A stretch of 45,232 nucleotides of DNA from contig NZ_JYKO02000002.1 of assembly GCF_000949385.2 (NCBI RefSeq), positions 1-45,232 of the forward strand, in the 5' to 3' direction. Shown here piece after piece: positions 1-14,115 of the stretch (the stretch's first letter is position 1; the number at the start of each line of letters is the position of its first letter). A model generated the notes under the pieces. It saw only the letters and a list, made by a program, of their open reading frames with translations. It searched no databases and was not told the DNA's origin. The translations under genes and the position numbers were made by a program. The DNA is from Pseudomonas sp. LFM046 (GTDB lineage: Bacteria > Pseudomonadota > Gammaproteobacteria > Pseudomonadales > Pseudomonadaceae).

Positions 1-7
1 GCAGGAT
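1..7. other. Left copy of GCAGGAT, candidate att core
   Basis: The first seven bases, GCAGGAT, are identical to the last seven (45226-45232). The copy lies within the int reading frame. Joining the ends through one copy closes int with a stop two codons later. Seven bases is short, so this could be coincidence or the way the window was cut, but placement next to int fits an att core. Confidence 0.45.
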
Positions 8-1245
8 GTTCCCGGCGCTTTTTCGTATGTGCTTGATTTAAAACGGATTAAATCGACTTCCGTTTCGTCCTGTACCAATTTCGTACCATTTGCGTGCGTT
101 TGCAGCTTCGCCAGCTCAGACCAGTCCGATGGCGAATTGATCCATTCGGCGTAAGTGCTCAGCAGGACTTCAACGGTGTGCCCCAGCTGGTTGGCGATGA
201 ACGCGAGGTTCGCACCGGCCATCAGCAGCATCGTCGCATAGGTGTGGCGCGTATCGTACTGCCGCCGCTTGCGGATGCCCAGCGCCTTCATGGCCGGCAC
301 CAGGTAATCGTTGGGCGCGTCCTCGCCCATCCAGGCCTTGCCCTGGGCCGGCGGGAAGACGTGTTCGGTGTCGACCTTTAGACGCTCGCGGATCGCCTTG
401 GCCCGCTCCAGGGCATGCCAAGCGCGGTCGTTCAGGAGCACCTTGCGGCGCTTCTTGTTCTTCACCCGCTCGACCACCCCGCCGTCGGCGATGATGCGGC
501 AGACATGGGCGGTGCGTTGCTGCTCGTCGATCTCGCCCCAGAGCAGCGCGCGCTGCTCGCCGGGGCGCATGCCGGTGTAGAAGGCAAACTCGAAGTAGGC
601 GGCGTAGATCTCCACGCGGCGACCGCCGAGCTGGCCATATAGATGCGCGATGATCCGGTCGGCCTCTTCCTGGGTGAAGGGGTCGATGGTGCGCCTGTGC
701 TTGCGTGGCAGGTCGACGGGCAGGGCGGGGTTCCTGGCCAGGTAACCGTCATTCACGGCGCTGCGCAGCACCACCCGAAGGCGAACCAGCGCCGTGCGCT
801 TGGCCGTCGGGGACGCCCAGGACGTCTCGTTGGCGATCCGGCGGATGTCGAAGGCGCTGACCTGGGTGACCGGGACCGGCGCCAGGTAGGGCATCCAGTG
901 CCGGTTCAGGGTGCTCTTGTAGTTGTCCCGGGTGCCCTTGACCACCTCCCGGCTATCCAGCCAGACCTGGCAGTACTCGCCGAAGGTCGGGACTCGCTTG
1001 GTCGCGGCGTAGCTCGAGTTGGGAAACAGCTCGGCGTACCGCTCATCGGTCATCACGCCGAGCTTGATCAGCCGAACTACGTCAGCACGTAGCTCGGTGG
1101 CAGCTTGGACCCCCTTGGCCGTTTGCGGATGGGCGAGGGTTTCGCAGCGGCGCGGCGGGTTGGCCCCTGGCCAGGTGAAGCGGATGCGGATGGCGCGCCC
1201 AGCAAACTCAACTCCGGTGGGCAAATCCAGGTGCTTTCGAGCCAT
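1..1245 (-). CDS. int: Tyrosine integrase, open at window edge
   Basis: Tyrosine recombinase that would integrate and excise the phage. The frame opens at ATG 1245 (start MARKHLDLPTGVEF) and stays open to base 1, giving 415 codons without a stop. The N-terminal part resembles the arm-binding domain (DUF3596 type), followed by a SAM-like core-binding domain. The catalytic set is visible: R227 (YTGMRPGEQ), R333 in DTRHTYAT, H356 in LGHT and nucleophile Y365 in LLSTYAEW. The residue three before R333 is Tyr rather than His, which to my knowledge is common in this subfamily. If the two window ends are joined through their shared GCAGGAT, the frame closes at once with Asp and TAG, so the 3' end of int probably overlaps the attachment core. 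It is the last gene of the leftward operon. Function is secure; the true C-terminus is not visible. Confidence 0.93.
   Translation of the reverse strand, partial: MARKHLDLPTGVEFAGRAIRIRFTWPGANPPRRCETLAHPQTAKGVQAATELRADVVRLIKLGVMTDERYAELFPNSSYAATKRVPTFGEYCQVWLDSREVVKGTRDNYKSTLNRHWMPYLAPVPVTQVSAFDIRRIANETSWASPTAKRTALVRLRVVLRSAVNDGYLARNPALPVDLPRKHRRTIDPFTQEEADRIIAHLYGQLGGRRVEIYAAYFEFAFYTGMRPGEQRALLWGEIDEQQRTAHVCRIIADGGVVERVKNKKRRKVLLNDRAWHALERAKAIRERLKVDTEHVFPPAQGKAWMGEDAPNDYLVPAMKALGIRKRRQYDTRHTYATMLLMAGANLAFIANQLGHTVEVLLSTYAEWINSPSDWSELAKLQTHANGTKLVQDETEVDLIRFKSSTYEKAPGTSC
72..88. repeat. GTACCA direct-repeat pair, left
   Basis: GTACCAATTTCGTACCA holds two GTACCA units 11 bp apart, inside the 3' end of int. 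A near-identical pair with 12 bp spacing lies at 45115-45132 near the other end. Paired repeats on both sides of the presumed att core are what arm-type integrase sites would look like. The role is inferred. Confidence 0.45.
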
Positions 1246-1430
1246 GCGTCGTACCTTTTAACGCTGTAAATCACGTCGCCGTTGATCTTGTTCCAGACGC
1301 CATGGGGAATCTTTCCCTTCAGGCGCCGGGTCTGCAATGCCCGGAAGGTGATGCCCAGTCGGGCCGCCATGTCCACCTCGCTGAGCTTGTCGCGGTCGGG
1401 CTCGAGTGTGAGGTCTTCTGCCGCACTCAT
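1077..1430 (-). CDS. Excisionase-like DNA-binding protein
   Basis: A 117-residue protein whose first 75 residues look like a small winged-helix or excisionase (DUF1233/PF06806-like) fold: DMAARLGITFRALQTRRLKG, then WNKINGDVIYSVKRYDAWLE. Such proteins bend att DNA and bias the integrase towards excision. The basic, Pro/Ser-rich tail (from about residue 78) overlaps the first 169 bases of int in another frame. The overlap is long for a phage, so the stop at 1077 depends on this reading. It sits directly upstream of int and 18 bases after the preceding gene, as expected for an xis. Family assignment is by motif resemblance only. Confidence 0.68.
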   Translation of the reverse strand: MSAAEDLTLEPDRDKLSEVDMAARLGITFRALQTRRLKGKIPHGVWNKINGDVIYSVKRYDAWLESTWICPPELSLLGAPSASASPGQGPTRRAAAKPSPIRKRPRGSKLPPSYVLT

Positions 1431-1448
1431 CGTCTCTTCCCTCCTTCC

Positions 1449-1919
1449 TTATGCCGATTTCGAGGCGGTCGGCCACGCGCCGACAGCGTCGAAGATGCGA
1501 TCCGCCTGCGACTCCTCCAGCGAAACGCTGTCCGGGATCGCGATCCAGGCCATGCCCTGCAGGTGCCTGGGGTTGCAACCGTCCCGCAACTCGACACTGT
1601 AGGTCTCGATGACCCGTTCTAGGTCCTTGGCGAGATAGACGCCCTGGGGCGCCACCTCGACGGCCTTCATGTAGCGCTTGCCGGTGTGGTCCCGGCAGAG
1701 TGCGGCCAGGTAGATGCACCACTGATGCGGGATATCGCACACCGCATCGACAATGGCAGTGCGGCTGTTGGAGGTGATCAGGGCCGCGCTCTGCCAGTTG
1801 ATCAACGTCTGGACCTCGCTGACCTCGGCATCGACCACCGCCACGTGGTTGGTGCGCAGCATGGCTCTGAGGTAGGCCTGGAGTCTGGCGCGGTGGTTGT
1901 ACGGCTTACGACGCTTCAT
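1449..1919 (-). CDS. Hypothetical phage protein
   Basis: A 156-residue protein starting MKRRKPYNHRARLQAYL. I do not recognise a domain. It has a basic N-terminus (about residues 1-22), a central region with CDIPHQWCIYLAALC, and no signal peptide or membrane segment. The start codon overlaps the stop of the methyltransferase by 4 bases (ATGA), so the two are translationally coupled. It lies between the methyltransferase and the excisionase-like gene in the leftward operon. The in-frame sequence upstream of this ATG is out-of-frame methyltransferase DNA, so the short start is preferred. Confidence 0.72.
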   Translation of the reverse strand: MKRRKPYNHRARLQAYLRAMLRTNHVAVVDAEVSEVQTLINWQSAALITSNSRTAIVDAVCDIPHQWCIYLAALCRDHTGKRYMKAVEVAPQGVYLAKDLERVIETYSVELRDGCNPRHLQGMAWIAIPDSVSLEESQADRIFDAVGAWPTASKSA

Positions 1920-3733
1920 GCGGCCATCCTCTGATACAGGTCGATGATGTCGGCCGCGTTGGCGGCAATGAGGTCTTCGGCTTCGTCTGGGCAGACGCTG
2001 TTGCCGATCAGCTTGATCTGGTCGGTGACCTTGATCACCCTCCACTCCAGGGCGCCGGTCTCCGGGTCCTCGAATAGTCCGCGGTCGATGATGTAGTCCG
2101 GGTCGAAGCCCTGGGCGAGCTTCAGCTCCTGCGGCTTGAGCATGCGCAGGGTGAAGTCCACCAGCACGTAGTCGCCCAGCAGCACCAGATCGACCAGCTG
2201 AGGGAAGTGCTCCGGCAGGTACTTGTGCGTGAAGGCGGCGCACTTCCTGGCCTTCTCCAGCAGCTCCGGCGGCAGGTTCAGCGCCGGCACCTGGACCACT
2301 GTCACCAGGGCCATCCGATCCTTGGTCGTGGCGGTGCTGCTGGGTTCGGTCAGCGACCGGGTGTTGTCGCCGGTGCTGAAGTACTTCACCAGGTAGGCGC
2401 TGGCCAGGCGCTGGTTGCTCTTGCCACAAATGGTGCTGGTCGGGTCGTTGGCCGAGCGGCCGTCTCCGGTGTAGAAGCCCCCATTGGCCTGCTCGAAGTG
2501 GCAGGCGGCCAGCGCGTGATGCCCCGAGTTGGTGGTGATGGCGTTCAGCGGCTGGGGCAGGGCATTGCCGACGGAACCCTTGCGCAGGGTGACCATGGCG
2601 GCTGTCACCAAGGCCTGCTCGCCACGGTTCGCGCCCGTGATGGTCCGGGTCGACTCGGTCACTGGATAGCCGCTGCGGTCCCCGTGGTGCGTCAGGTGGG
2701 TGAGGTGGGCCGCCGACAGGGCAAAGTGCCCGCCCTTCACCTGGGCGACCTGGGTGCGGAGCGGGTCATGGGCGCTGAAGGTGCGTTGGGTGCTGGCGTT
2801 GGCGAACTCCGTCAGGTTCACGGCGGCCAGCGCCTCATCGCTGAGCGGGACAAGGAACGGGTTGTCGCTCATGACGGTGTGGCGCCAGAAGCCCTTGGCC
2901 ACACGGCGGTTGGTGTTGGCCACCAGACGCTCGTCGATGATCGACTTGCCCAGGTCGCTGAAGTCGATGCATTCGGCGGCCGAGCGCCATGGCAACTGGC
3001 CCTTTTTTGGCTTCTCGTGGCGCTTCGGTTGGGTCCAGATGATCGGCCGCCCGTCGGTGCGGCCGACCATGAAGAGGCGCTTGCGGATGGTCGGGGCGCC
3101 GGCATTGGACGCCCGGCGCTCGCGCCATTCCACGTTCGCACCCAGGCCTCGCACCAGGGCGGCCTTGGGTACCCACTGACCGATGGCGTCAAGGATCTCG
3201 GGCAAGTCGGGGTGGGCAGGGTCGAGGCCGGTGGACAGGCAGGCGATGAAGGCCTTGAACGTGCGGCCGGCCAGCGCCTTGATCGGCTTGCCGTTGTCAT
3301 CCAGCGGGCCCCAGTCCTGGAACTCCTCGACGTTCTCCAGGAAGAACAGGCGCGGCTTGGTGGCATGCACCCAGCGCACGACCACCCACGCCAACGAGCG
3401 GACGCGGCGGCTGCGGGGTGCGGCGCCCTTGGCCTTGCTGAAGTGGCGGCAGTCCGGGGATGCCCAGAGGATGCCGACGGGTTGCCCGCCAGTAGCTTCC
3501 AGCGGATCGACTTCGAACACGTCGGTGATGTAGTGCCGGGTGTTCTTGTGATTCGCCCGGTGAACCGCGATGGCGATGGGATTGTGGTTGATGGCGATGT
3601 CCGGGTCACGGTAGACCCTGGCGCCGCCGCTACTTGCGCCGCCGGCACCCGCGAAGAGGTCGACGTACAACTCATGGACGAACGGCAGTGCCTGCTGAGT
3701 TGCCGGGGGAAGATGACGGTTGAAGGAGGTCAT
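1916..3733 (-). CDS. C5-cytosine DNA methyltransferase
   Basis: A 605-residue S-adenosylmethionine-dependent cytosine-5 DNA methyltransferase. Visible motifs: motif I DLFAGAGGASSG (about 25-36); motif IV SPDCRHFSKAKG with the presumed catalytic C95, where a PDC replaces the usual PC; motif VI FLENVEEF (ENV 133-135); motif VIII IRKRLF (216-221); and near the C-terminus LIGNSVCPDEAEDL, matching motif X. The region between VIII and X is longer than in small type II enzymes and would hold target recognition. No restriction endonuclease is adjacent, so it is an orphan, most simply protecting phage DNA from host restriction. It overlaps the reverse transcriptase stop by 4 bases (ATGA), placing it in the DGR transcription unit. 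Sequence specificity cannot be read. Confidence 0.9.
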   Translation of the reverse strand: MTSFNRHLPPATQQALPFVHELYVDLFAGAGGASSGGARVYRDPDIAINHNPIAIAVHRANHKNTRHYITDVFEVDPLEATGGQPVGILWASPDCRHFSKAKGAAPRSRRVRSLAWVVVRWVHATKPRLFFLENVEEFQDWGPLDDNGKPIKALAGRTFKAFIACLSTGLDPAHPDLPEILDAIGQWVPKAALVRGLGANVEWRERRASNAGAPTIRKRLFMVGRTDGRPIIWTQPKRHEKPKKGQLPWRSAAECIDFSDLGKSIIDERLVANTNRRVAKGFWRHTVMSDNPFLVPLSDEALAAVNLTEFANASTQRTFSAHDPLRTQVAQVKGGHFALSAAHLTHLTHHGDRSGYPVTESTRTITGANRGEQALVTAAMVTLRKGSVGNALPQPLNAITTNSGHHALAACHFEQANGGFYTGDGRSANDPTSTICGKSNQRLASAYLVKYFSTGDNTRSLTEPSSTATTKDRMALVTVVQVPALNLPPELLEKARKCAAFTHKYLPEHFPQLVDLVLLGDYVLVDFTLRMLKPQELKLAQGFDPDYIIDRGLFEDPETGALEWRVIKVTDQIKLIGNSVCPDEAEDLIAANAADIIDLYQRMAA

Positions 3734-4863
3734 GCGGCCCCCTTGTAGGTCTTGGTCATGCCGGCGTTCACCGCCTTGCCACGCAGCAGCACGGCCTTGG
3801 CCAGGCGCCGGCGGTCGGTGTGGCTGTGGCTGGCCTGGGTGAGTAGGCCGAAGTAGCTGTTGGCGGTTTCCCGCAGGCTGGTGGTCGGCGCGCTGGCGAC
3901 CTGCCGGAGGGCGTGTTCGACCGTGCGGCGGCGGGTGGTACGGCGCCAAGGTTTGATCACTTGACCGACGAAGTCGACGCCGCGGTCGATGGACTGCAAG
4001 ATGGTCTTGGTCGGGTTGAGGCGGACGCCCAGCCGTTCCGGCAGGAAGGCCTCGATCTCGGCCAGCCAGGCATTGAGCTGCTGGGGCGACTGGTGCAGCA
4101 GCACGAAGTCGTCGACGTAGCGGATGTAGTGCCGCGCGCCCAGGCGGTGCTTGACGAACTGGTCCAGGGCGTCGAGGTAGACGTTGGCGAAGAACTGGCT
4201 GCTGAGGTTGCCGATCGGCAAGCCGCGATAGCTCGGCTGGCTGTTCAGGCGCTTATGTTGCGGCACGCGGTTGAGCAGGCGGGCCGGGCTATGCAGCTGG
4301 TAATTCTCCCGTGGGTCGTGCAGCAGGATCTGCAGTGCCAGGGCTTGCCAGTCCGGTTCCGGGATACGGGCGACCAGCTGGTCGGCGAGGATGCGTTTGT
4401 CGATGCTGACGAAGAAGTTGGCCAGGTCGCACTTGAGGTAGTGCGCCGGGCGGCTCCAGTTCTGGGTTTGGCTGCGGACCTTGGCCTCCAGGCGCTGGGC
4501 AGCATAGAGGGTGCCGCGTCCAGGAATGCAGGCGCAGCTGTCGGCGATGAAGCTGCGCTCGATGCGCGGGCCGATGTGGTTGTACAGCAGGTGATGCACG
4601 ATGCGATCGCGGAAGTCGGCCGCCCAGACCTCCCTCGGCTTCGGGTGGGTGACCACGAAGCAGATGGAAGCGCCGGGCTGGTAGGTGCGGTTGACCAGCT
4701 CGGAATGCAGTTGCATGAGGTTGCGCTCCAGGTTGAGCTCGAAGGCCAGTGCGCTCCGGCTGCTGCGCTTGTTGCGCCGGCAGTCCAGGTAGGCCTGCAC
4801 CAGGGCCTCGAAAGAAAATTCAGCACGGCCCGCTGCGGCAGCGGGTGTATCTGCGGACGGCAC
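3730..4863 (-). CDS. DGR reverse transcriptase
   Basis: Reverse transcriptase of a diversity-generating retroelement: it copies the template RNA into cDNA with adenine-specific errors for transfer into the variable repeats. Counting from GTG 4863 (377 aa), the first catalytic Asp is in YLKCDLANFF (D146), the DGR-diagnostic GLPIGNLSSQ is at 214-223 (SQ where retroviral enzymes have SP), and the YVDD catalytic box is at 249-252. The length fits compact DGR enzymes, and there is no maturase or endonuclease domain as in group II introns. The start is uncertain. The frame is open through the whole template repeat up to 5148. GTG 4863 or the ATG pair at 4911/4908 lie inside the repeat, and GTG further down would cut into the conserved FEALVQAY segment. 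Stop is coupled to the methyltransferase. Confidence 0.95.
   Translation of the reverse strand: MPSADTPAAAAGRAEFSFEALVQAYLDCRRNKRSSRSALAFELNLERNLMQLHSELVNRTYQPGASICFVVTHPKPREVWAADFRDRIVHHLLYNHIGPRIERSFIADSCACIPGRGTLYAAQRLEAKVRSQTQNWSRPAHYLKCDLANFFVSIDKRILADQLVARIPEPDWQALALQILLHDPRENYQLHSPARLLNRVPQHKRLNSQPSYRGLPIGNLSSQFFANVYLDALDQFVKHRLGARHYIRYVDDFVLLHQSPQQLNAWLAEIEAFLPERLGVRLNPTKTILQSIDRGVDFVGQVIKPWRRTTRRRTVEHALRQVASAPTTSLRETANSYFGLLTQASHSHTDRRRLAKAVLLRGKAVNAGMTKTYKGAA
4829..4845. repeat. Hairpin beside the DGR template repeat
   Basis: Perfect 7-bp inverted repeat CCCGCTG / CAGCGGG with a 3-nt loop, 5 bases beyond the 3' end of TR and inside the 5' part of the RT frame. The VR hairpins sit 36-37 bases away instead, so this one may belong to the template RNA fold. 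Function is inferred. Confidence 0.55.
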
Positions 4864-4950
4864 GAGCCCGGTAGTCGTTGTCCTTGTGGTCGTTGTTCTG
4901 GTTGCCATCATCGAAGTTCTGGATCCACGCGTTGTTCGGGCTGTACTGCG
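4851..4950 (-). repeat. DGR template repeat (TR)
   Basis: A 100-base repeat matched without gaps by three variable repeats (5559-5658, 6240-6339, 6915-7014). In the leftward sense it contains 30 adenines. Read in the frame of the target proteins it encodes many AAC and GAC codons (NNAWIQNFDDGNQNNDHKDN). It differs from VR1 at 15, VR2 at 9 and VR3 at 12 positions, and all 36 differences are at TR adenines; 21 of the 30 adenines differ in at least one copy. The 24 bases at its 3' end are invariant and correspond to the initiation-of-mutagenic-homing region. It lies between avd and the RT core, the usual place for the DGR template RNA. Confidence 0.96.
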
Positions 4951-5122
4951 CCAAGTCGTGCGATCTACGTCGCCGCGCCGAAGGCCGGAGCCGATCAGCG
5001 GGGTAACTGCGCAGGGCCTGTCCGACACGGGGCCGGTGGTCCCCTGGATGCGCATGGCGGTGGCCGGGTAGGCCAGCGGCACGACCAGATTCAAAATCGC
5101 GCAGGCAAGAGCGCCTTGACGC

Positions 5123-5485
5123 TCAAGCAGCGGGCGACGTTGCGGCATGTTTCTTCCACCCTGTGGCTTGCCGACCCAGCGGGTCAGTAATCTCGATCGC
5201 CCGGGCGTATTGCCGGGTGCTGATCAGGCGCTTGTCGACGGCCAGGCGCAGCATCAGCTCGATCACCTGGAGGTGCTCCAGCAGCTTGCTGATGTGGGTG
5301 GCGCGGTCGGCGCCACTGGCCACGTTGGCCCTGAAGATCAGGGTCACGACCTCGAAGCACTCCATCAGCACCTTCTCGCCCAGGGTCCGCTTGAAGTCGC
5401 GCGGCATGTTCTTGGCGAGGTCGGCCGCCAGGCTGGCAAGGTCGCTGGCCAGTTTGTAGATCGGCAGTTGGTGGTGTAGGGCCAT
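5123..5485 (-). CDS. avd: DGR accessory variability protein Avd
   Basis: A 120-residue, mostly helical, basic protein (MALHHQLPIYKLASDL to the C-terminal KKHAATSPAA) of the Avd/23S-rRNA-IVP four-helix-bundle type. LPIYKLASDLASLAADLAKNMPRDFKRTLGEKV is the typical first helix pair (only in outline here). Avd proteins form a pentameric barrel that binds nucleic acid and the DGR reverse transcriptase and is needed for retrohoming. Its place, directly upstream of the template repeat and downstream of the target genes, is that of avd in Bordetella phage BPP-1. ATG 5485 is used; 18 bases separate it from the VR1 hairpin. The fit of size, composition and context makes the call strong. Confidence 0.92.
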   Translation of the reverse strand: MALHHQLPIYKLASDLASLAADLAKNMPRDFKRTLGEKVLMECFEVVTLIFRANVASGADRATHISKLLEHLQVIELMLRLAVDKRLISTRQYARAIEITDPLGRQATGWKKHAATSPAA

Positions 5486-5503
5486 GCTGAAAAACTCGCC
5501 GAA

Positions 5504-5522
5504 GCGCGGGCTCCGCCCGCGC
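5504..5522. repeat. GC hairpin 3' of VR1
   Basis: Perfect 8-bp inverted repeat GCGCGGGC / GCCCGCGC with a TCC loop, in the gap between the stop of target gene 1 and the start of avd. It is 36 bases from the 3' end of VR1, nearly the same spacing as at VR2 and VR3. In BPP-1 a GC-rich hairpin or cruciform just after VR is needed for target recognition, so the same role is inferred. Confidence 0.75.
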
Positions 5523-5542
5523 CCCGTTAAGGGTTGAAGGGG

Positions 5543-6160
5543 TTAAGGGTTAACGACTCTGCGGACGGCACGAGCCCGGTAGTCGCTGCCCTTGCGGTCG
5601 CCGTACTGGCCGCCATCACCGAAGCCCTGGACCCACGCGGTGCCCGGGCTGTACTGCGTGCTGCTCCAGTGCCAGCGCTCCTCGAACAGCTCGCGGACGT
5701 TGGCGTAGCAGAGGGCCAGTTCGAAGCGGGACGGCAGGTAGAGGTCGCGGTGTCCCTCGATCTCCAGCCCGGCGGCCCACTGCGCGGCGGGGTGCTCGTG
5801 TTCGGCGTCGCAGAGTGCACGGGTATTGGCCAGGCCATCGCGGGCATGGGTGGCGCCGTGTTCACTTTCCCCAGCGGCACCCCAGGGGATTTCCTTCGCT
5901 GTGGCGGCCTCGGCAGTCGGCACCACCAGGTGGTAATCCGGCTGGCCGTCTTCGCCGCGCACCAGACCGGCATACACGCCGCCCTGGCCGGACCAGTACT
6001 GGCCGATGGCGGGCGGCTCCAGGGAAATGCGCACGGTCAGCTCGCCCATCACGCTCTGGGCGGCCGTGATGCCGGCGGCCTGCTCGAGCACCTGACGGGC
6101 CAGCAGGGCGTTCGGGGTTTCCAGACGGGTGCTGCCGACTTCAATGGTGATCAGATTCAT
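5543..6160 (-). CDS. DGR variable target protein 1
   Basis: A 205-residue protein of the DUF1566/C-type-lectin-like kind used by many DGRs. Its N-terminal third (about 1-100) is unlike the other two targets. From DGLANTRAL onward it has the shared core, with LYLPSRFELALCY and WHWSSTQYSPGTAWVQ, ending in YRARAVRRVVNP. The last 40 residues are the diversified ligand-binding face encoded by VR1. No signal peptide or membrane segment is visible. ATG 6160 follows a GAGGA ribosome site 8 bases away; the in-frame TTG six bases earlier is less likely. Residues at variable positions relative to the template include N to G, T, G, Y and G. Its ligand is unknown. Confidence 0.92.
   Translation of the reverse strand: MNLITIEVGSTRLETPNALLARQVLEQAAGITAAQSVMGELTVRISLEPPAIGQYWSGQGGVYAGLVRGEDGQPDYHLVVPTAEAATAKEIPWGAAGESEHGATHARDGLANTRALCDAEHEHPAAQWAAGLEIEGHRDLYLPSRFELALCYANVRELFEERWHWSSTQYSPGTAWVQGFGDGGQYGDRKGSDYRARAVRRVVNP
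5559..5658 (-). repeat. DGR variable repeat 1 (VR1)
   Basis: 100-base gapless match to the template repeat with 15 differences, every one at a template adenine (mostly A to G, with one A to C and one A to T in the coding sense). It forms the 3' end of target gene 1, ending 13 bases before the stop codon. It is the most diverged of the three repeats. Confidence 0.95.
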
Positions 6161-6187
6161 GGTCAAGTCCTCAAAAATTCGCGGCGA

Positions 6188-6202
6188 CCGCGCTGCGCGC
6201 GG
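6188..6202. repeat. GC hairpin 3' of VR2
   Basis: Inverted repeat CCGCGC-TGC-GCGCGG (6-bp stem, 3-nt loop) between the stop of target gene 2 and the start of target gene 1, 37 bases from the 3' end of VR2. The same hairpin and nearly the same flanks recur after VR3, which suggests the gene-plus-spacer unit was duplicated. Confidence 0.72.
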
Positions 6203-6220
6203 CGGAGAGGGATGAAGTGA

Positions 6221-6835
6221 TCAAGGGGTGACCTTGAATCTGCGGACGGCACGAGCCCGGTAGCCGTCGCCCTTGTGGTCGCTGGTCTGGGTGCCATCAT
6301 CGAAGTCCTGGATCCACGCGTGGCTCGGGCTGTACTGCGTACTCGCCCAATGCCAGGTAGGCTCGAAGGCCTGCTCGCCGTCGGCGCGGAAGGCTTCGGC
6401 GCTGGTCTGCGCGGGGCTCTCGGCGGTGTAGGGGTAGCCGACCGGCAGGCTGCTGGGGTTGTCGCCGTCGCGGAAGCTGGCCCAGTTGTCCTGGGTGGTG
6501 GGCTTCAGGTGGCGGTAGCAGAGTTCCAGTTCGTCGCGGCTGGGCAGGTACCAGTCGGTGAAACCGTTGATGTCGAGGGCGAGCATCCAGCGGGCGAGGT
6601 CGCTGCCGGCCCCGGCCATGGCTTGGGTGTTGGCCAGGCCGTCGTTGCAGCTGCGGGCGTCGGTCAGGTTTTCGCCGTACTTGCCCAAGCTGGCTTCGTC
6701 CAGTTCGCCCTGGGCCTTGGGCGAGACGATCAGGGCGTATTCGGCGCCGTCGAGCTGGAGGCGGCCGACATAGAATCCGCCTTCGAACGGGGTGCCGGCG
6801 GTGGTGGGCAGGGCGTTGTGAGTCAGTGCGTTCAT
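6221..6835 (-). CDS. DGR variable target protein 2
   Basis: A 204-residue DUF1566-like target protein. It opens MNALTHNALPTTAGTPFEGG, shares GTPFEGGFYV and the DWYLPSR core with target 3, and ends WASTQYSPSHAWIQDF then YRARAVRRFKVTP. The conserved DGLANT and WYLPSRDELELCY motifs mark the lectin-like fold; the final 40 residues are the VR-coded variable surface. Compared with target 3 it has about 37 extra residues, mainly an insertion between the YLPSR motif and the WHWASTQ motif. No secretion signal is seen. ATG 6835 follows a GAGGA site; the in-frame TTG upstream is rejected. Its VR is closest to the template (9 changes), so it may have been rewritten most recently. Confidence 0.92.
   Translation of the reverse strand: MNALTHNALPTTAGTPFEGGFYVGRLQLDGAEYALIVSPKAQGELDEASLGKYGENLTDARSCNDGLANTQAMAGAGSDLARWMLALDINGFTDWYLPSRDELELCYRHLKPTTQDNWASFRDGDNPSSLPVGYPYTAESPAQTSAEAFRADGEQAFEPTWHWASTQYSPSHAWIQDFDDGTQTSDHKGDGYRARAVRRFKVTP
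6240..6339 (-). repeat. DGR variable repeat 2 (VR2)
   Basis: 100-base gapless match to the template repeat with 9 differences, all at template adenines. It forms the 3' end of target gene 2. The invariant 24-base block at its 3' side is identical in all four copies. Confidence 0.95.
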
Positions 6836-6862
6836 GGTCAAGTCCTCAAAAATTCGTGTTGA

Positions 6863-6877
6863 CCGCGCTGCGCGCGG
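6863..6877. repeat. GC hairpin 3' of VR3
   Basis: Same CCGCGC-TGC-GCGCGG hairpin as after VR2, between the stop of target gene 3 and the start of target gene 2, again 37 bases from the VR end. The conserved spacing supports a role in marking the repeat as a homing target; it could also fold in the mRNA leader of the next gene. Confidence 0.72.
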
Positions 6878-6895
6878 CGGAAAGGGTTGAAGGGG

Positions 6896-7399
6896 TTAAG
6901 GGGTGACCTTGAATCTGCGGACGGCACGAGCCCGGTAGCCGCTGCCCTTGTGGCCGCTGTTCTGGTAGCCACCAGCGAAGTGCTGGACCCACGCGTAGTG
7001 CGGGCTGTACTGCGTGCTGCTCCAGTACCAGCGCGGGGCGAAGGTGTTGGTCTGTTCGGCCTGATAGCCGTCGGCGTCCAGCAGGCTGAAGTACTGCAGG
7101 GCCTGCTCCTGGCGGCTGGGCAGGTACCAGTCGCCGAAGCCGTTGAGCTCCATGGCCAGTGCCTTCCGGGCCAACTCGCTGCCGGCTTCGGCCATGGCGC
7201 GGGTGTTGGCCAGGCCATCGCTGGTGGTGGTCGCCACGTCCTGGCCGTACTCGCCCCAGCTGCCGCGCAACTCGCCGGCGGCCCCGGCATCGATCAGGAC
7301 GAACTCTTCGCGCTCGACGAAGTAGCGGGCCACGTAGAAGCCGCCCTCGAAAGGCGTGCCAGGGATGGTCGGGATGGCGATCTTGTTCAGTGCATTCAT
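6896..7399 (-). CDS. DGR variable target protein 3
   Basis: A 167-residue DUF1566-like protein, the shortest of the three targets and the first in the operon. It starts MNALNKIAIPTIPGTPFEGG, contains DGLANTRAMAEAGSELARKA and GDWYLPSRQEQALQYF, then WYWSSTQYSPHYAWVQHF and YRARAVRRFKVTP. The ends match target 2 almost exactly, so the pair probably arose by duplication. No signal peptide or membrane span is present. ATG 7399 is preceded by a GAGGA-type site; the TTG at 7405 is rejected. The VR-coded tail gives aromatic and His residues (H, Y, H, Y) at template Asn positions, as expected for a diversified binding face. Confidence 0.92.
   Translation of the reverse strand: MNALNKIAIPTIPGTPFEGGFYVARYFVEREEFVLIDAGAAGELRGSWGEYGQDVATTTSDGLANTRAMAEAGSELARKALAMELNGFGDWYLPSRQEQALQYFSLLDADGYQAEQTNTFAPRWYWSSTQYSPHYAWVQHFAGGYQNSGHKGSGYRARAVRRFKVTP
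6915..7014 (-). repeat. DGR variable repeat 3 (VR3)
   Basis: 100-base gapless match to the template repeat with 12 differences, all at template adenines, including several transversions (A to T and A to C in the coding sense). It forms the 3' end of target gene 3. Confidence 0.95.
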
Positions 7400-7426
7400 G
7401 GTCAAATCCTCGAATTCGGTCCGGGG

Positions 7427-7972
7427 TCAGGCGGCGCGGGCGCGGTGGGTGGTGGCCAGCAGTTCCATCAAGCGGTGGAAGTAGTGCTGGCGGGCCTCCG
7501 TGGGGCTCCACTGAGCAATGCGGGCGGCGTGCGGTGTGATGCCGTGCAGGCAGGGCCAGTCCACCGGATGGGCTGGCATCAGGTCGCGCTTCTCGGTGGC
7601 CAGGGCCACCAGGTCGGCGTGCTTGACCTCGGGCGCCAGTACCTCGGGGAGGTCGAAGCGCTCGGCCACGGCCAGCCAGATGCGCCGCTCGACGTACTGG
7701 TACTCCGGCATCAGCTCCTTCAGTGGGCGCACCATGTCGCCGATGTAGGCTTCGGTGGCGTCGTGGAGCAGGGCCTGCAGCTTTAGCTCGGGCGTTTCCA
7801 CCAGGTCGCAAACCAGCAGGCTGTGCTGCGCCACGCTGTAGTGGTGCTTCACGTGGCCGTTGAAGCGGCAGGTGTGCGCCAGTGCGTGGGCCAGATCGGC
7901 CGGCTCGATCATTTCGCCGGTGGGCATCAGCAGGTCGAAGACCTTGCCGCTGTTGGTGAGGATCCAGCTCAT
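7427..7972 (-). CDS. HD-domain phosphohydrolase
   Basis: A 181-residue metal-dependent phosphohydrolase of the HD/YfbR-like (5'-deoxynucleotidase) type. The HD signature is complete: HHYSVAQHSLLV near residues 43-54, ALLHDATEAYIGD at 68-79 (H70-D71), and a later D in the EVKHADLVAL helix. Family members hydrolyse nucleotide monophosphates or related phosphates, so this one may adjust the nucleotide pool during infection. Its start overlaps the stop of the DHH gene (ATGA), so the two are coupled. It lies directly upstream of the DGR targets, separated by 27 bases. The exact substrate cannot be read. Confidence 0.87.
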   Translation of the reverse strand: MSWILTNSGKVFDLLMPTGEMIEPADLAHALAHTCRFNGHVKHHYSVAQHSLLVCDLVETPELKLQALLHDATEAYIGDMVRPLKELMPEYQYVERRIWLAVAERFDLPEVLAPEVKHADLVALATEKRDLMPAHPVDWPCLHGITPHAARIAQWSPTEARQHYFHRLMELLATTHRARAA

Positions 7973-9144
7973 GGCTGCACCTCGCCGCTGGCAATGAGCC
8001 CAGATGTGTCGCGCAGGGCACTGATGGCTGTGATCATCAGGGCTTTCTCGGCGGCCGGCATCGGTACCAACTGCAGCCCTGCTTCCAGCTGGGCAAGCCC
8101 CTGCGGAGTGGACTCGCCCACCAGGCCGGCAAGGGCAGAGTGCAGCCGCGCAAGCGCCAGCTCGGCAGCGCGCATCGGGTGCTTGGTGCAAGTGCGGATA
8201 TGGTCCGTCAGAACCTGGTGGCCAGCCGATGGCATGTGCTGCGGGTACTCGTGGCTGCAGTAGACGCAGGTCAGGACCCGGGCGGTGGGGAAACCAGCCA
8301 GCTCATGGTCGAACGGCACCTTGAAGCCGGCCGCATTGCGGTGGCCACCGCCGCCGTACTGCTTGGCGATCTCGCCCACATCCAGGCCATCGCCGCTGCT
8401 GCGCAGGGAGAAGTAGCGGTGGTCGGTGGTGTCCTGGTAGCAGGCAGCAAAAGGCTCGCCCTGGGCCATCAGGTGGCCTGCGTCGCTGGAGTGGATGTAG
8501 GGAAGGTTCGCTACGGGGACGTCGTGGCCGCCGATGAGCATGCGGCGTTTGCTGCCGGCCACCAACTCGGCCACGTCTTTGTGATGCTTGCGCTCGATGG
8601 CGGACCCGGCGGCGATGGCGTCGCCGATTGGCTGCTGCATCAGCGAATCCCACACCTCGAAGTCGTAGGGGTAGCTGAACAGGTTGGCCTGAATCTCGCG
8701 GGTGCCTTCCAGCGCGAAGCGCCAGAGGTCACGGTCCTCGATGTGGTTGATCAGGGGCGGACGTGGGCTGTGGGGAAAGAAGAAGTCCCAGGTGAGCCCA
8801 GCGCCGCTGCGGTTCATGTCGAACAGGGCGCTGAGCTTGGGCAGGGTATCTGCCCAGGCGTAGTAATCCGTGGGCGCTGGCTCCAGCGCGGCCAGGGCCT
8901 CGGCGGCTGTCTTGTGGTGGTCGATCACCAGCACGGAGCGGGCCTGCTGGGCCATCGACTGGAGCGCTTCCAGGGGGAACGAGAAGTCGACGATGACCAC
9001 GACACGGTTGGCCACGTCCGGTGCGGGCATGCCGTAGCGGCCGGCTAGGAACTCGACGTTTTCCGCGCCGATACCCTGACGCACAGCCCATGCAGCCCCG
9101 AATCCGTCAGCGCAATTGCCGTGATAGATGCAGAGAGCTTTCAT
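7969..9144 (-). CDS. DHH/DHHA1 phosphoesterase
   Basis: A 391-residue DHH-superfamily phosphoesterase. Metal-binding motifs are GNCADGFGAAWA (10-20), VIVDFSF (about 50-56) and the namesake VIDHHKTA (DHH 75-77). The DHHA1 substrate motif GGGGHRNAAGF lies near residue 270. The family includes RecJ-like nucleases and nano-RNA or cyclic-dinucleotide phosphodiesterases; the size and lack of an OB domain favour an oligonucleotide or dinucleotide substrate over RecJ. After the DHHA1 domain there is an extra C-terminal part (about 290-391) with CVYCSHEY and a helical tail, possibly zinc-binding. Start and stop both overlap neighbours by 4 bases. A role in clearing cyclic-nucleotide defence signals is possible but only inferred. 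Confidence 0.88.
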   Translation of the reverse strand: MKALCIYHGNCADGFGAAWAVRQGIGAENVEFLAGRYGMPAPDVANRVVVIVDFSFPLEALQSMAQQARSVLVIDHHKTAAEALAALEPAPTDYYAWADTLPKLSALFDMNRSGAGLTWDFFFPHSPRPPLINHIEDRDLWRFALEGTREIQANLFSYPYDFEVWDSLMQQPIGDAIAAGSAIERKHHKDVAELVAGSKRRMLIGGHDVPVANLPYIHSSDAGHLMAQGEPFAACYQDTTDHRYFSLRSSGDGLDVGEIAKQYGGGGHRNAAGFKVPFDHELAGFPTARVLTCVYCSHEYPQHMPSAGHQVLTDHIRTCTKHPMRAAELALARLHSALAGLVGESTPQGLAQLEAGLQLVPMPAAEKALMITAISALRDTSGLIASGEVQP

Positions 9145-9899
9145 GCTGCCACCTCTGCGCGCTTGGCTTCGACCAGTTGCATGGCTTTCTCGAAGCTCAG
9201 GGCGAGGCTGCCGAATTTGGTGAATGGGCCGTCGCTGTAAGTCAGCACTAGGGTATTGAGAGGCGGGAAGGGCGTGCCCGGGTACCAGTCGTCGAGGATC
9301 TCAGACAGGCCGAGGGCGTCCGCGATGGCGCGGGCGTTGCGGGTCTTGCCGCAGCCTTGTGGGCCATAGACCAGGTGGCTTCTCACGGCTGCCGGGGTGC
9401 CCTTGATCGACCGGTGTCGGGTAGCGGGCAGTTCGGCGTTCTGGTTCGACAGCACTTCCTGCAGGCGGGCGTGCAAATCGCGGGTGCTGGTCAACTGGTT
9501 GGCTGCCTCGGCCTGCTTGTCCAGGGCCTGTAGGCCGGCGAAGGTATTGCGGGCCAACTCCAGGGTCTTCACGGTGGTGGCCAGCGCGGCCAGGTCCTGC
9601 TCAGTGAAGGGATTGGCGCGGCGGGCGTAAGCGGCGATGCGCCGATCGGCGTCCTGCAGGAGCTCTTCGCGATCCTGCTGGTGTCGCGCCTGGTCGTTCG
9701 CGCGCTTGTTGGCCAGTTTGCAGAGGTCCGCGTTGAGCAGGCCGATGCGTTCCTGGGCTGCACTGCGGGCGATCTCGTGGCCTTCGTCGTAGCCGGCAGC
9801 GCGTGCGCTGCGGGCCGTGCGGAAGGCGAGTACGGTCCAGCCGATGTTCACGATCACGAGCAGTGCGACGAGCAGCTGGAGGGTGGTGGTCTGTTGCAT
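9141..9899 (-). CDS. Membrane-anchored coiled-coil P-loop protein
   Basis: A 252-residue protein of unusual build. Residues 6-26 form one transmembrane helix (LQLLVALLVIVNIGWTVLAF). A long charged coiled-coil-like helix follows to about 170. A Walker A motif, YGPQGCGKTRNA, is then followed by about 70 residues with LDDWYPGTPFPP. No clear Walker B or sensor motif is seen, so it may bind nucleotide without being a full ATPase. I do not recognise the family. It may be a fusion of a separate small P-loop protein to a membrane/coil part. A good AGGAG site precedes ATG 9899. It couples to the DHH gene by a 4-base overlap. Confidence 0.78.
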   Translation of the reverse strand: MQQTTTLQLLVALLVIVNIGWTVLAFRTARSARAAGYDEGHEIARSAAQERIGLLNADLCKLANKRANDQARHQQDREELLQDADRRIAAYARRANPFTEQDLAALATTVKTLELARNTFAGLQALDKQAEAANQLTSTRDLHARLQEVLSNQNAELPATRHRSIKGTPAAVRSHLVYGPQGCGKTRNARAIADALGLSEILDDWYPGTPFPPLNTLVLTYSDGPFTKFGSLALSFEKAMQLVEAKRAEVAA

Positions 9900-9920
9900 G
9901 TGCTGTGTCTCCTTTCGTTA

Positions 9921-9959
9921 TGCCGCCTGCCCGCTGATGTGGAGGGCAGGCAGGCGGCA
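9921..9959. terminator. Strong hairpin between early genes
   Basis: Perfect 11-bp inverted repeat TGCCGCCTGCC / GGCAGGCGGCA with a 17-base loop, in the 66-base gap upstream of the P-loop gene. There is no T-run on either side, so it is not a typical intrinsic terminator. It may stabilise or process the leftward mRNA. Confidence 0.4.
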
Positions 9960-9965
9960 GTGGCA

Positions 9966-10778
9966 TCAATTGCCGGGGTTGAAGCTGCCCAGGTACAGGG
10001 TCGCGGACTCACCGAGCTTGTCGGACAGCACGCGCTTGAATTCCTGGGCGATCTCTTCGCGCTGGATCTCCTCGCCTGCCCAGCGAGCCTTCAGCGCCGG
10101 CTTGTCGCCGCCGGTGAGGATGGACAGACGCAGGGTGAAGGTGCGCTGGCCAAGGCCCTCGTAGGGCACCAGGGCGAAGTGCAGGGCGTCCGGCAGCTTG
10201 TCCTGACTTTCTGCCTCGATGCGGTCCATGGCGCTGCGGGAGGCGTTGAAGTTGCCCTCCTGGTGAGTGCGCTCGGAGGCGGCCTTGATGGTGATGTTGC
10301 GGACCGCTGCAATGGCCTGGACCAGCCCCATGGAGGCTTCGCCGTCGGTGGCGGTCAGGAACTGCGCCCAATCCTCCATCCATTCGGCCAGGTCTTTCTG
10401 GGTGAGGGTGGAGCCAGCGATGGCCAGCAGTGTCTTGTAGGCGGCGGTAGGCTTGAGCTTCAGGTTGGCGGTGTCATCGGCGTGGCCGGGGTGGTCGAGG
10501 TCGCCCAGGTTGAAGAACACCTTGCAGGACATGGCGTCCTGGTCGACGTAGCCCTGGGTGCCGGCAACTTCGCGCTGCAGGACGTAGCCGCAGAAGTCCT
10601 CCAGGGAAGCGGTGCTCAGCGCGCCACGGAAGCGCGAGCGGCCGGGCATGTATTCCTCGAGGTTTACGACCTGGGTGCTCTGGGGAACCAGGGCCACCGG
10701 AGTATCGGTGCCCAGTTCCTTGCCGGAGGCGGCCAGGGCTTGGTCGAGGATCAATTGCAGTGCGTCTTTGTTGAGCAT
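9966..10778 (-). CDS. DUF2303 family protein (YfdQ-like)
   Basis: A 270-residue member of the DUF2303/YfdQ family, common in the early regions of Pseudomonas and enteric prophages. Typical features: MLNKDALQLILDQAL at the N-terminus, SRFRGALSTASLEDFCGYV, a central ADDTANLKLKPTAAYKTLL, and a C-terminal region with FALVPYEGLGQRTFTLRLS. It is soluble with no membrane segments. Its role is unknown; it regularly occurs next to small genes such as the one that follows. In the leftward operon it lies 50 bases after that gene. The assignment rests on overall pattern recognition. Confidence 0.82.
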   Translation of the reverse strand: MLNKDALQLILDQALAASGKELGTDTPVALVPQSTQVVNLEEYMPGRSRFRGALSTASLEDFCGYVLQREVAGTQGYVDQDAMSCKVFFNLGDLDHPGHADDTANLKLKPTAAYKTLLAIAGSTLTQKDLAEWMEDWAQFLTATDGEASMGLVQAIAAVRNITIKAASERTHQEGNFNASRSAMDRIEAESQDKLPDALHFALVPYEGLGQRTFTLRLSILTGGDKPALKARWAGEEIQREEIAQEFKRVLSDKLGESATLYLGSFNPGN

Positions 10779-10828
10779 GTGGTGCGTCCTTCTTCAGGTG
10801 CTGTGGGTTTTCAGATCGTGGAGGGGGA

Positions 10829-11173
10829 TCAGGTGCGTGCCGTTACCGGCGTGTCGTCGCGGCTGAACATCTGTGCCGTCGGGTCGGTCTGGAACAGCTC
10901 CAGGCCCTTGGGCGTGACGTACATCGGGGTATCGAGGGCGGTGTCCTCGCGGCGGCTGCCGCGCTTGGTGGGCACCTGGTAGTCGAGCTTGTGGTTGATC
11001 TTCACCTGGTTGGATTCGCCGATCTGGCTGAGCTCCAGGGTGATGACCACCTTGCCCTTCTTGCCGTGGTCGACCACGCCGCCGCCGACTTCGGACAGGG
11101 CGGCGCCGACTTGCTGGGCGAATACGCCGGCATTCAATGAGCCGAAGAAATCGGCGATATCGGTAGGTTTCAT
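10829..11173 (-). CDS. Hypothetical early phage protein
   Basis: A 114-residue protein (MKPTDIADFFGSLNAGVFAQ). The middle part VVITLELSQIGESNQVKINHKLDYQVPT looks like a beta sheet, and the C-terminal part has YVTPKGLELF and ends RDDTPVTART. It occurs next to DUF2303 genes in related prophages, as far as I recall, but no function is known to me. Soluble, no motifs for enzymes. It sits in the leftward operon between the DUF2303 and PrtN-like genes. Confidence 0.75.
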   Translation of the reverse strand: MKPTDIADFFGSLNAGVFAQQVGAALSEVGGGVVDHGKKGKVVITLELSQIGESNQVKINHKLDYQVPTKRGSRREDTALDTPMYVTPKGLELFQTDPTAQMFSRDDTPVTART

Positions 11174-11220
11174 CGTGCTGTACTCCCGTGAGGGTGGTGT
11201 TATGCCGCGTGGGCGGCGGG

Positions 11221-11460
11221 CTAGGTTTCGGCCAGTGCCTGCGCGTCGAGGTAGTCCGCCAGGTCATGGAGGTACACCACGCGCTTGGCCCGGGCTGAGT
11301 TGTGCAGGCGGTTCACCTTGAGGGCGACCTTCCCGCTGTTGATCAGCCGCAGCAGGTGCTTGTCCGTGCGGATGTGGCTGAAGTAGCGCTCGCGGATGGC
11401 TGTCAAGGTGGGGCAGGGTGACGGCCATTCCTGGCGGAGTTGCTCCAGGGTCTGGTTCAC
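11221..11460 (-). CDS. PrtN-like (pyocin activator) regulator
   Basis: A 79-residue protein starting at GTG 11460. Residues from PTLTAIRERYFSHI through LLRLINSGKVALKV to VYLHDLADYLDAQ match the pyocin-activator PrtN family: a small domain with a helix that inserts in DNA and a conserved HL.DLA.Y.D end. PrtN activates pyocin genes in Pseudomonas; phage copies may act on phage promoters or host pyocins. The GTG start overlaps the preceding stop by 4 bases (GTGA), which fixes the start. Longer in-frame readings upstream are shadow sequence. Confidence 0.8.
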   Translation of the reverse strand: MNQTLEQLRQEWPSPCPTLTAIRERYFSHIRTDKHLLRLINSGKVALKVNRLHNSARAKRVVYLHDLADYLDAQALAET

Positions 11461-11822
11461 GCCGCTGCCTCCCCGCGCCCCACCGGGAGGCGTGCGCGAA
11501 TGAGGTGGACGAGGCCTTCGATGGTCTTGCCGGTATCGCGGGCGGCGATGTTGCCCGCCTCGTCGGTGATCACCGCGCCGTAGGGCCGCACGGGGTCCTC
11601 GGTGAGGGTCACGTGAGGCAGCCAGCCTGCGGGCGTCAGCTTGAACAGGCGGTGGAACAGGTCCACCAGTTCCAGGGCGCGCGGATCGATGGCTTCGAGG
11701 CGCTCGATGCACTCCAGCGATGCCTCGTGAACGGTTTCCGCGCCGACTGCGGTGGGATTGTGGAAGTGCATGTCGGCCAGCTTGAGCACGCCAATGGCGT
11801 CGGTGATGGGGTTCGGTTTCAT
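11457..11822 (-). CDS. Hypothetical protein
   Basis: A 121-residue protein (MKPNPITDAIGVLKLADMHF). It has a helical first half (DAIGVLKLADMHFHNPT, TVHEASLECIERLEAI) and a beta-rich C-terminal half ending ARLPVGRGEAAA. I do not recognise a family. It overlaps both neighbours by 4 bases, so it is translated as part of the PrtN-like/KilAC cluster. Its real status rests on this tight packing and on codon use like its neighbours. Confidence 0.72.
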   Translation of the reverse strand: MKPNPITDAIGVLKLADMHFHNPTAVGAETVHEASLECIERLEAIDPRALELVDLFHRLFKLTPAGWLPHVTLTEDPVRPYGAVITDEAGNIAARDTGKTIEGLVHLIRARLPVGRGEAAA

Positions 11823-12100
11823 GCCGCTGCGTCCTTGTTCGATTGGGTCACGGTGATGCCGAGTTGGTTGGCCAGCCAGCCGATACCCTGTTCCGTCACC
11901 ATCACTACGCCGTAGTAGCTGTAGCCCTTGATGGAGGCGTTCCAGCGCTGGCGGGTATCGATGTAGAGGTGCCCTTTGTCGCGGTACTTACACGCCAGCT
12001 CGCCCAGTTGGGTGAGGATTCCGATGGCGCGAAGGCGTTGGCGGAAGGCGCGGGGCTTCTGCCCCAGCACCGCGGCGGCCTGGTCCAGGGTTCGGTTCAT
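11819..12100 (-). CDS. KilAC-domain (antirepressor C-terminal) protein
   Basis: A 93-residue protein that is a stand-alone antirepressor KilAC domain (PF03374 type): AAVLGQKPRAFRQRLRAIGIL is the winged-helix start, then YRDKGHLYIDTRQRWN and a C-terminal VVMVTEQGIGWLANQLGI matching the family's V.VT.KG...I end. In full antirepressors this domain follows a BRO/AntA/Rha N-terminus, which is absent here, so DNA binding or modulation of the repressor is inferred. It overlaps the next gene by 4 bases and lies 4 bases after the Lar/DUF3310 gene. Confidence 0.82.
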   Translation of the reverse strand: MNRTLDQAAAVLGQKPRAFRQRLRAIGILTQLGELACKYRDKGHLYIDTRQRWNASIKGYSYYGVVMVTEQGIGWLANQLGITVTQSNKDAAA

Positions 12101-12104
12101 GGCG

Positions 12105-13001
12105 TCAGCCTCGGGCGGCGCTGGCTTCTACGCGGCGGACGCGTTCCAGCTCACGCTGCAGCAGCTCGACGCATGCCTCGTAACCCCCGCACTGCGGTTC
12201 CCCGGCGATGATCAGCATTGCGGCGCCGACGGGATGCGGTTCGTGGGTGGCGATCAGGCCAAGGTCCCAGCGAACGTCATCGGGGAGCTTGCCGGGCCAG
12301 TCGATCCAGCGCTCTGCGTGGCGATTCACATACCAGATCGCCTTCTCGATGTTTTCGCTGGCGGCGTTCTTGGCGTTCCGGCGGAACAGGTACTTGAAGG
12401 CATTGCCCAGGCAGAACGGCAGGTGCTCCGCGACCTGGATGCATTCAATGCCCGAAGGATGTCCCGTGTAGTGCGGCGGATGGTTGACGAGGTCGAGGGC
12501 TTTCTCGCCAAGGTCAGACGGCTGACTGGCTTCGGTTTGTTGGCGGTTCCAGGCAGCGCAGGCGGCGGCTTCGTTGGGAAAATCCTGCAGGCGTTGGCAG
12601 TGGTTGTGGCGGCACTGCACGCCGAACAGCCAGACCGTGGTGCTGTCGGGGGCCATATAGGTGTAGGAGATGGCCTCCCCGGCACAGACGTGGCAGGGGC
12701 ACAGCGCTGGGCCGAAACCGCGTGGCGCGTCCGAGGCGGTTTCCGCTGTGCCGTTGGCGATGGACTCGATGTACTCCGCCAGATGCTGGGCGTTCGCGCT
12801 ATCGCCAGCCTGCAGGGCAATGCTGTTGGAGGTGCCGCCCAGGCTGATGGCGACCTCCAGGCGCTCGCCGGCGGGCTCGATGACGATACTTGACTTCAGC
12901 TCATTGGCCGGGCGCTCAAGCTGCAAGAGTCCGGCGCCGCCGGACACTACCAGGGAGCTGAGGACTTGCAGGGAGCCTGCGGTCAGGGTGTAGCCGTTCA
13001 T
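12105..13001 (-). CDS. Lar-like / DUF3310 fusion protein
   Basis: A 298-residue protein with three parts. Residues 1-95 are unrecognised. Residues about 98-155 look like a Lar restriction-alleviation zinc domain (CPCHVCAGEA..., then CRHNHCQ, ending NEAAACAAWNRQ). Residues about 172-225 are a DUF3310 domain (VNHPPHYTGHPSGIECIQV, FCLGNAFKYLFRRNAKN, ENIEKAIWYVNRH), known from phage nucleotide-kinase-like proteins. Lar-type proteins reduce type I restriction. The combination in one chain is noteworthy. The C-terminal 70 residues carry a CGGYEACVELLQRELERVRR helix. Coupled by a 4-base overlap to the 68-residue gene upstream. Confidence 0.8.
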   Translation of the reverse strand: MNGYTLTAGSLQVLSSLVVSGGAGLLQLERPANELKSSIVIEPAGERLEVAISLGGTSNSIALQAGDSANAQHLAEYIESIANGTAETASDAPRGFGPALCPCHVCAGEAISYTYMAPDSTTVWLFGVQCRHNHCQRLQDFPNEAAACAAWNRQQTEASQPSDLGEKALDLVNHPPHYTGHPSGIECIQVAEHLPFCLGNAFKYLFRRNAKNAASENIEKAIWYVNRHAERWIDWPGKLPDDVRWDLGLIATHEPHPVGAAMLIIAGEPQCGGYEACVELLQRELERVRRVEASAARG

Positions 13002-13204: not shown

Positions 13205-13210
13205 GATGTC

Positions 13211-13237: not shown

Positions 13238-13239
13238 AA

Positions 13240-13304: not shown

Positions 13305-13329
13305 GTGATCAGTCTGACTGCTCGGGTGA

Positions 13330-14091: not shown

Positions 14092-14115
14092 GCGCTCAGC
14101 GTATAAGCAAGGCTT

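Follow-up and report, generated by a model that had tools for sequence, protein, structure and literature searches.

Where copying of a template starts and where it stops in a diversity-generating retroelement (DGR) is known mainly from one phage, BPP-1. A locus of Pseudomonas sp. LFM046, in which an RNA structure stands on the other side of the template repeat (TR), raises the question of whether the BPP-1 copying mechanism is general or local. The DNA analysed here, referred to as the window, is the whole of contig NZ_JYKO02000002.1 (45,232 nt). Within 3730-7399, all on the minus strand, it carries three target genes (T1, T2 and T3), avd, the TR and a reverse transcriptase (RT) gene, in that order of transcription. 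Judged by its sequence, the locus is a complete DGR of a temperate phage, with every part of a working one present. A first-pass annotation of this DNA had proposed such an element, with three adjacent targets served by a single template, and each part was located. It had further described a variable repeat (VR) at the end of each target, and three VR cores of 98 nt indeed align to the TR without a gap; the RT motifs that it listed, GLPIGNLSSQ and YVDD, both occur in the RT (3730 to about 4911). The order targets-avd-TR-RT was said to be that of known phage DGRs, and the order in BPP-1, target-avd-TR-RT, agrees. The database comparison that it recommended matched RT to RVT_1 (65.3 bits, cut-off 29.6) and Avd to bAvd (49.4 bits, cut-off 40). 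The best match of RT in PDB was a reverse transcriptase, 8ub7 (E 5e-39), which we take to be that of BPP-1; the PDB matches of Avd (52 up to E 1) were nearly all designed ankyrin-repeat proteins and were judged to be chance. Three features go beyond the first-pass annotation, namely an RNA structure between avd and TR, a hairpin 3' of every VR and an RT frame that crosses the TR. The system is of a known kind, and what appears to be new is its template RNA, in which the structured RNA RT-15 adjoins the 5' end of the TR, the reverse of the BPP-1 layout.

RT-15 (Rfam RF03018) was the sole Rfam family matched in the window, with a score of 174.1 bits against a cut-off of 82 over model positions 1-192. 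Read from 5139 to 4949, it covers the last 17 nt of avd and stops where the TR core starts. Relatives were surveyed by RT similarity as 80 genome and 80 viral loci, each set being the best 80 of a longer list, and were scanned for TR partners; the resulting 160 loci contain duplicates (L005 and L098, for example). RT-15 was present in all 50 viral records searched (of 80) and in 8 of 8 further sources; the genome loci scanned with Rfam were L070 and L071 of 80. Each of the 49 viral relatives with a TR call showed an overlap of 2-3 nt between the 3' end of the RNA and the start of the TR. A search with the RNA model, made without recourse to the RT, matched 3 of 398 genomes of the phylum and 9 of 198 of the family, the LFM046 genome being counted in both. 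At all 12 loci found with the RNA model, window included, a TR overlapped the end of the RNA by 1-3 nt, and two VRs with adenine-biased mismatches were in reach together with RT motifs. The RNA alignments (A2, A3) comprised the window and 54 loci chosen from 98 non-redundant of 151 usable loci. In the MAFFT alignment of these 55 sequences the Rfam fold paired 91.6% of cells, and pairing dropped below 40% once the partners were slid by one base. Double-changed cells numbered 310 compared to 95 ± 9 after shuffling, and 40 of 56 pairs had changed on both sides. Helix 7 was poorly conserved (58%), and RNAalifold, unaided, recovered nearly the same fold. As a separate observation, one genome (G515) holds two RT-15 DGR loci (L199 and L206) with equal RT-15 scores and differing DNA.

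We also examined the 3' side of the TR, where the structured RNA of BPP-1 lies. In the BPP-1 control the TR abuts avd, brt begins 144 nt after the TR, and the Rfam family Phage_DGR (RF03022) was matched in that spacer. The BPP-1 spacer recruits bRT-Avd, and an adenine within it primes complementary DNA (cDNA) synthesis (PMC12875486). Phage_DGR had no match in the window, nor in 4400-5300 at E values up to 5, and gave 0 matches in 299 genomes of the phylum, where the controls were equally silent. No conserved structure was found 3' of the TR in the 55 aligned sequences (4 pairs, -0.7 kcal/mol, 0 covarying cells), whereas the same analysis 5' of the TR gave 47 pairs, -54.9 kcal/mol and 282 covarying cells. 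A conserved 3' spacer RNA hidden in the start of the RT coding sequence was considered as well. Codon conservation in RT, computed from 108 of 152 loci, was elevated over the first 15 codons, which in many loci touch the TR, and not further on; on this result, the Phage_DGR search and the 3' fold analysis, a conserved RNA of this kind was rejected.

The RT frame itself extends into the template. In the window it is open through the TR up to 5148, with candidate ATG codons at 4911 and 4908 (both inside the TR), at 5055 (inside RT-15) and at 5148. Start codons were counted at 150 of 161 loci, 11 being skipped. The last 45 nt of the TR were open in the RT frame at every one of the 150, and 122 had no ATG, GTG or TTG between the TR and the first RT motif. 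At these 122 loci, barring a rarer codon, RT would therefore have to start inside or before the TR; candidate start positions vary from locus to locus. A group in which the TR overlaps the RT open reading frame has already been described (PMC3521204).

The two systems are alike in several respects. TR/VR differences in BPP-1 are confined to adenines and its target has a lectin fold, as at this locus; the RTs are homologous (31% over 308 aligned columns), and both have a hairpin 3' of the VR (PMC3240598). However, BLASTP gave no alignment between the LFM046 and BPP-1 Avd proteins, and the structured RNA is 3' of the TR in BPP-1 but 5' of it in LFM046, where the RT frame also overlaps the TR. 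We put at about even the chance that these are two opposite designs, BPP-1 recruiting RT-Avd and priming itself 3' of the TR and the RT-15 elements working 5' of the TR, with RT translation starting within or before the template and with no structured 3' spacer. Lacking such a spacer, the RT-15 elements would therefore have to prime cDNA in another way, for example on a nicked target at the hairpin, and we infer that priming differs from that in BPP-1. It is likely, from the comparisons above, that RT-15 belongs to the template ribonucleoprotein. The description printed in Rfam is only 'RT-15 RNA', whereas here the family is tied to a DGR template repeat; if this is true, an RNA family bearing only a number gains a function. 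Our literature search found no paper naming RT-15 or RF03018, the original paper on the RT families being outside its reach, and the available parts of three DGR surveys (PMC3521204, PMC6642488 and PMC10743442) make no mention of a structured RNA 5' of the TR. From their close Rfam numbers one might guess that RT-15 and Phage_DGR share an origin.

The repeats themselves carry the mark of adenine mutagenesis. All 36 mismatches between the TR and VR1, VR2 and VR3 (12, 9 and 15, respectively) fall on TR adenines over the gapless core, and in each pair the 68 non-A positions show 0 changes. Fisher p-values for the bias are 1.1e-7 (VR1), 9.1e-6 (VR2) and 8.5e-10 (VR3), which are somewhat flattering in that the block ends were placed where gapless identity stops. 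The survey scanner penalises mismatches off adenine, and its 4040/4095 is inflated for that reason. In the VR frame the TR has seven AAC codons, which can never become stops when their adenines are randomised. Relatives were then compared in closest pairs, the first 30 of 438, which share members; 23 of the 30 were non-identical. In these 23 pairs the TR had 0-2 differences over 100-105 positions, while the VRs differed at 9-20 of 28-32 A-sites and at 0-2 of 70-73 non-A sites, and the remainder of the target stretch diverged by about 3-20%. Compared with the surrounding genes, the A-sites thus vary more and the non-A sites less, as repeated mutagenic copying from the TR predicts. The first-pass annotation had counted as signs against a DGR either constant VRs beside a changing TR or VR changes off adenine; what was found in the 23 pairs is mostly the opposite, and the comparison supports mutagenic homing in the clade. 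Among congeneric genomes, 9 of 18 (LFM046 included) matched the target DNA, mostly in pieces of less than 120 bases; one (G005) had a 446-base piece at 65% and an RT-15 locus of its own. One survey locus, L126, has a distal VR (4508-4609) with a single adenine mismatch to its TR, and is either freshly copied nearly error-free or an inactive element; in its proximal VR, 2 of 4 mismatches are off adenine.

A DNA hairpin stands behind each of the three VRs of the window. In the relatives such hairpins are GC-rich, have loops of 3-4 nt (often CTTG, GCA or GTA) and start at a median of about 30-34 nt behind the VR. They were found behind 91 of 136 proximal, 35 of 122 distal and 6 of 15 third VRs, compared to 2 of 138 TRs; shuffled sequence, in which single-base content only was preserved, gave a hairpin at 0.7% and 2.7%. 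BPP-1 requires its VR hairpin, which has a GRNA tetraloop (PMC3240598).

We consider it highly probable that the locus is a DGR that mutates adenines and whose template RNA is laid out as the mirror image of that of BPP-1. The avd-TR-RT transcript would supply this RNA, made up of the RT-15 domain followed by the TR. RT-15 would bind the RT-Avd complex and, because its tight fold lies at the 5' edge of the TR, would fix where cDNA synthesis stops. The RT would copy the TR and place random bases opposite its adenines, and the cDNA would replace one of the three VRs, chosen by their common 3' end and by the hairpin, which may serve as a mark in that it is frequent behind the VRs and rare behind the TRs of the clade. 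The outcome would be three lectin-fold proteins whose binding faces are randomised independently of one another. Such an arrangement would mirror that of BPP-1, whose structured, RT-recruiting part is 3' of the TR. Several observations weigh against this proposal. A 3' structure whose position varies among loci could have escaped the covariation tests. The TR of the window itself has a perfect 7-bp hairpin on its 3' side (4829-4845, CCG loop), and 87 of the 122 distal VRs (71%) have none by the strict definition, so that hairpins mark the VRs as a tendency and not as a rule. Full identity, VRs included, was seen in seven of the 30 closest pairs, which give no sign of activity; three of them join a genome to a viral record, possibly the same genome entered twice, and four join two viral records. 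For the DGR of this prophage, activity is presumed from its relatives.

Table 1. Features of the DGR and its prophage in the window (positions on the forward strand).
Feature	Position	Strand	Basis or remark
Target T1, 167 aa, third (extra) target	6896..7399	-	Lcl_C, lectin-type fold
Target T2, 204 aa, equivalent to the distal target of most close two-target relatives	6221..6835	-	Lcl_C
Target T3, 205 aa, equivalent to the proximal target; N-terminal extension of ~50 residues	5543..6160	-	Lcl_C-like
VR1 core	6915..7012	-	12/12 mismatches on TR adenines
VR2 core	6240..6337	-	9/9 mismatches on TR adenines
VR3 core	5559..5656	-	15/15 mismatches on TR adenines
DNA hairpin 3' of VR1	6863..6877	-	6-bp stem, GCA loop
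DNA hairpin 3' of VR2	6188..6202	-	6-bp stem, GCA loop
DNA hairpin 3' of VR3	5504..5522	-	8-bp stem, GGA loop
avd, DGR accessory protein, 120 aa	5123..5485	-	bAvd PF22296, 49.4 bits
RT-15 structured RNA (Rfam RF03018), proposed 5' domain of the template RNA	4949..5139	-	174.1 bits, E 2e-42
TR core, 98 nt, 30 adenines, 7 AAC codons in VR frame	4851..4948	-	TR/VR alignment
DGR reverse transcriptase	3730..4911	-	RVT_1; GLPIGNLSSQ, YVDD
Temperate siphophage prophage	1..45232	.	Gene content of both arms

What the DGR diversifies was approached through the targets and their relatives. T1 and T2 matched Pfam Lcl_C (PF07603) at 45.5 and 39.2 bits, above the cut-off of 34.9, and T3 scored 24.1 bits, below it; models of T1 and T3 gave a lectin-type fold. 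The closest solved fold is the C-terminal domain of Legionella Lcl (PDB 8q4e). Lcl is an adhesin in which this domain is part of a larger protein, whereas T1 and T2 consist almost solely of the lectin domain. It is plausible, given these predicted folds, that the three targets are binders carried at once by one phage. Such a set of three on one template had been called uncommon, which holds for the tandem arrangement: three VRs in tandem are rare within the clade, occurring in 3 of 160 relatives (L070, L071 and L076). However, several targets per DGR are well described. Multi-target elements make up about a seventh of DGRs in one survey (PMC3521204, which also lists a Pseudomonas fluorescens WH6 DGR with two VRs) and 28.6% in another (PMC6642488), up to eight targets are mentioned in a third (PMC10743442), and the multi-VR DGRs of these surveys likewise use one TR for several paralogous targets. 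In our own survey (n=160), 127 loci had two VRs, 15 three, 1 four, 8 one and 9 none; where at least 5.4 kb of upstream sequence was present (n=142), the corresponding numbers were 120, 14, 1, 4 and 3. Tandem target pairs occurred at 123 of the 160 loci, 4 of the 127 two-VR loci having one VR far away, and 13 loci with three or four VRs include a remote one. Locus L049 has four VRs, two of them remote, with adenine-only mismatches throughout.

T2 and T3 are the usual distal and proximal targets of close relatives. The nearest survey relatives of T1 are found in L089 and L086, as remote targets that lie 3.5-3.9 kb upstream; L086 lacks a T3 counterpart. A recent tandem duplication of T2 was rejected as the origin of T1, which is 63% identical to the L089 target and 48% identical to T2. 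By these identities T1 is a recognisable separate lineage, here standing in tandem, and it sets the LFM046 DGR apart from related Pseudomonas/Burkholderia-type prophage DGRs, which mostly have two VRs. Those counts stem from the 160 survey loci and not from phages LPPA56, Magia, Cruim01 and Haboob, which share RT-15, avd, RT and two tandem target-like genes on the same side of the genome. A DNA search of the host genome with the three-target region for further VRs matched only the cassette and its TR (E <= 0.001).

The surroundings of the cassette bear on where the targets act. The leftward arm of the prophage carries int, xis, a cytosine methylase gene, the DGR, genes for a nucleotide phosphatase and a DHH protein, and a CI-like repressor gene (13330-14091); primase, terminase, portal, capsid, tail, tape-measure, fibre and endolysin genes are on the rightward arm. 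The three targets thus lie on the repressor/integrase arm, away from the tail genes, whereas BPP-1 has one target, mtd, which adjoins a tail gene. In all six annotated phages viewed (LPPA56, Magia, Haboob, Cruim01, phPA-G and QDWS) the cassette has integrase, repressor or recombination genes as neighbours and borders on no named tail gene, although in LPPA56 nearly all genes except the recombinase are unnamed, so that only the recombinase informs its placement. None of T1-T3 has a hydrophobic segment. In phage D3 a T1 homologue, orf68 (L189 8986-9546), directly follows cI in the annotation and shares its strand, a placement that makes expression in the lysogen likely. Further T1 homologues occur among small unnamed genes in the jumbo phages Paride (L190 5001-5444, where the homologous frame runs antisense to the annotated genes) and PA5oct (L188 5983-6474); D3, Paride and PA5oct are absent from the 9 records whose RT match reached E 1e-60 or better.

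Because of the repressor/integrase arm, the lack of a hydrophobic segment and the D3 homologue beside cI, we lean slightly to the view that T1-T3 act inside the host cell or lysogen, which seems somewhat more likely than a role as tail fibres. The alternative, that they are virion receptor-binding proteins like Mtd of BPP-1 and that the DGR shifts adsorption specificity, is possible but less probable. Their lectin-type folds are those of known DGR receptor-binders, and the nearest solved fold is that of an adhesin. DGR targets in the three main phage clades are, moreover, mostly annotated as tail proteins (PMC8144416), which also counts against an intracellular role. Set against this are the gene neighbourhoods in the window and in the six phages, so unlike that of mtd, the near absence from T1 and T2 of anything but the lectin domain, and T1 homologues that stand beside cI or among small unnamed genes in phages outside the close-RT records. 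With two or three lectin-like proteins diversified together and encoded away from the tail region, the clade would offer a handle on roles of phage DGR targets other than receptor binding.

It is improbable that RT-15 is instead a cis-acting leader controlling translation or transcription of RT, and not part of the template ribonucleoprotein, which would count against the mirrored template RNA. RT-15 does lie directly 5' of the RT frame, with possible RT starts within it (5055) and within the TR (4911). However, the coincidence of its 3' end with the TR start (the overlap of 2-3 nt in 49/49 noted above) contrasts with the shifting position of the candidate RT starts, and with RT-15 set aside there would be no conserved structured RNA left for RT-Avd to bind, unlike in BPP-1. 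Least probable is that the cassette is a relic, complete in sequence and without activity in this prophage: some relatives, such as L126, look damaged or unmutated and 9 of the 160 survey loci had no VR call (some of them from shortened contigs), but here the reading frames of RT, avd and the three targets are uninterrupted, both RT motifs are preserved, and 12, 9 and 15 of the 30 TR adenines are altered in the VRs with the core otherwise unchanged, whereas a long-dead cassette would accumulate non-A changes.

Two minor observations concern the records themselves. Shewanella phage QDWS (OK094664) and 'Hujiaoplasma phage zrk29-1' (OP650936) agree in length and in the values of their RT match and are probably one phage, which makes the Tenericutes host label doubtful. 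Finally, the prophage contig begins and ends with GCAGGAT, and a chromosome contig (C1, 954277-954960) carries the first 342 and the last 341 bases of the prophage with one N between them, flanked by genes read as pepA and lptF (named by reading, not by search). Both prophage ends are joined there by that single N, which looks as though the prophage had been split off into a contig of its own.

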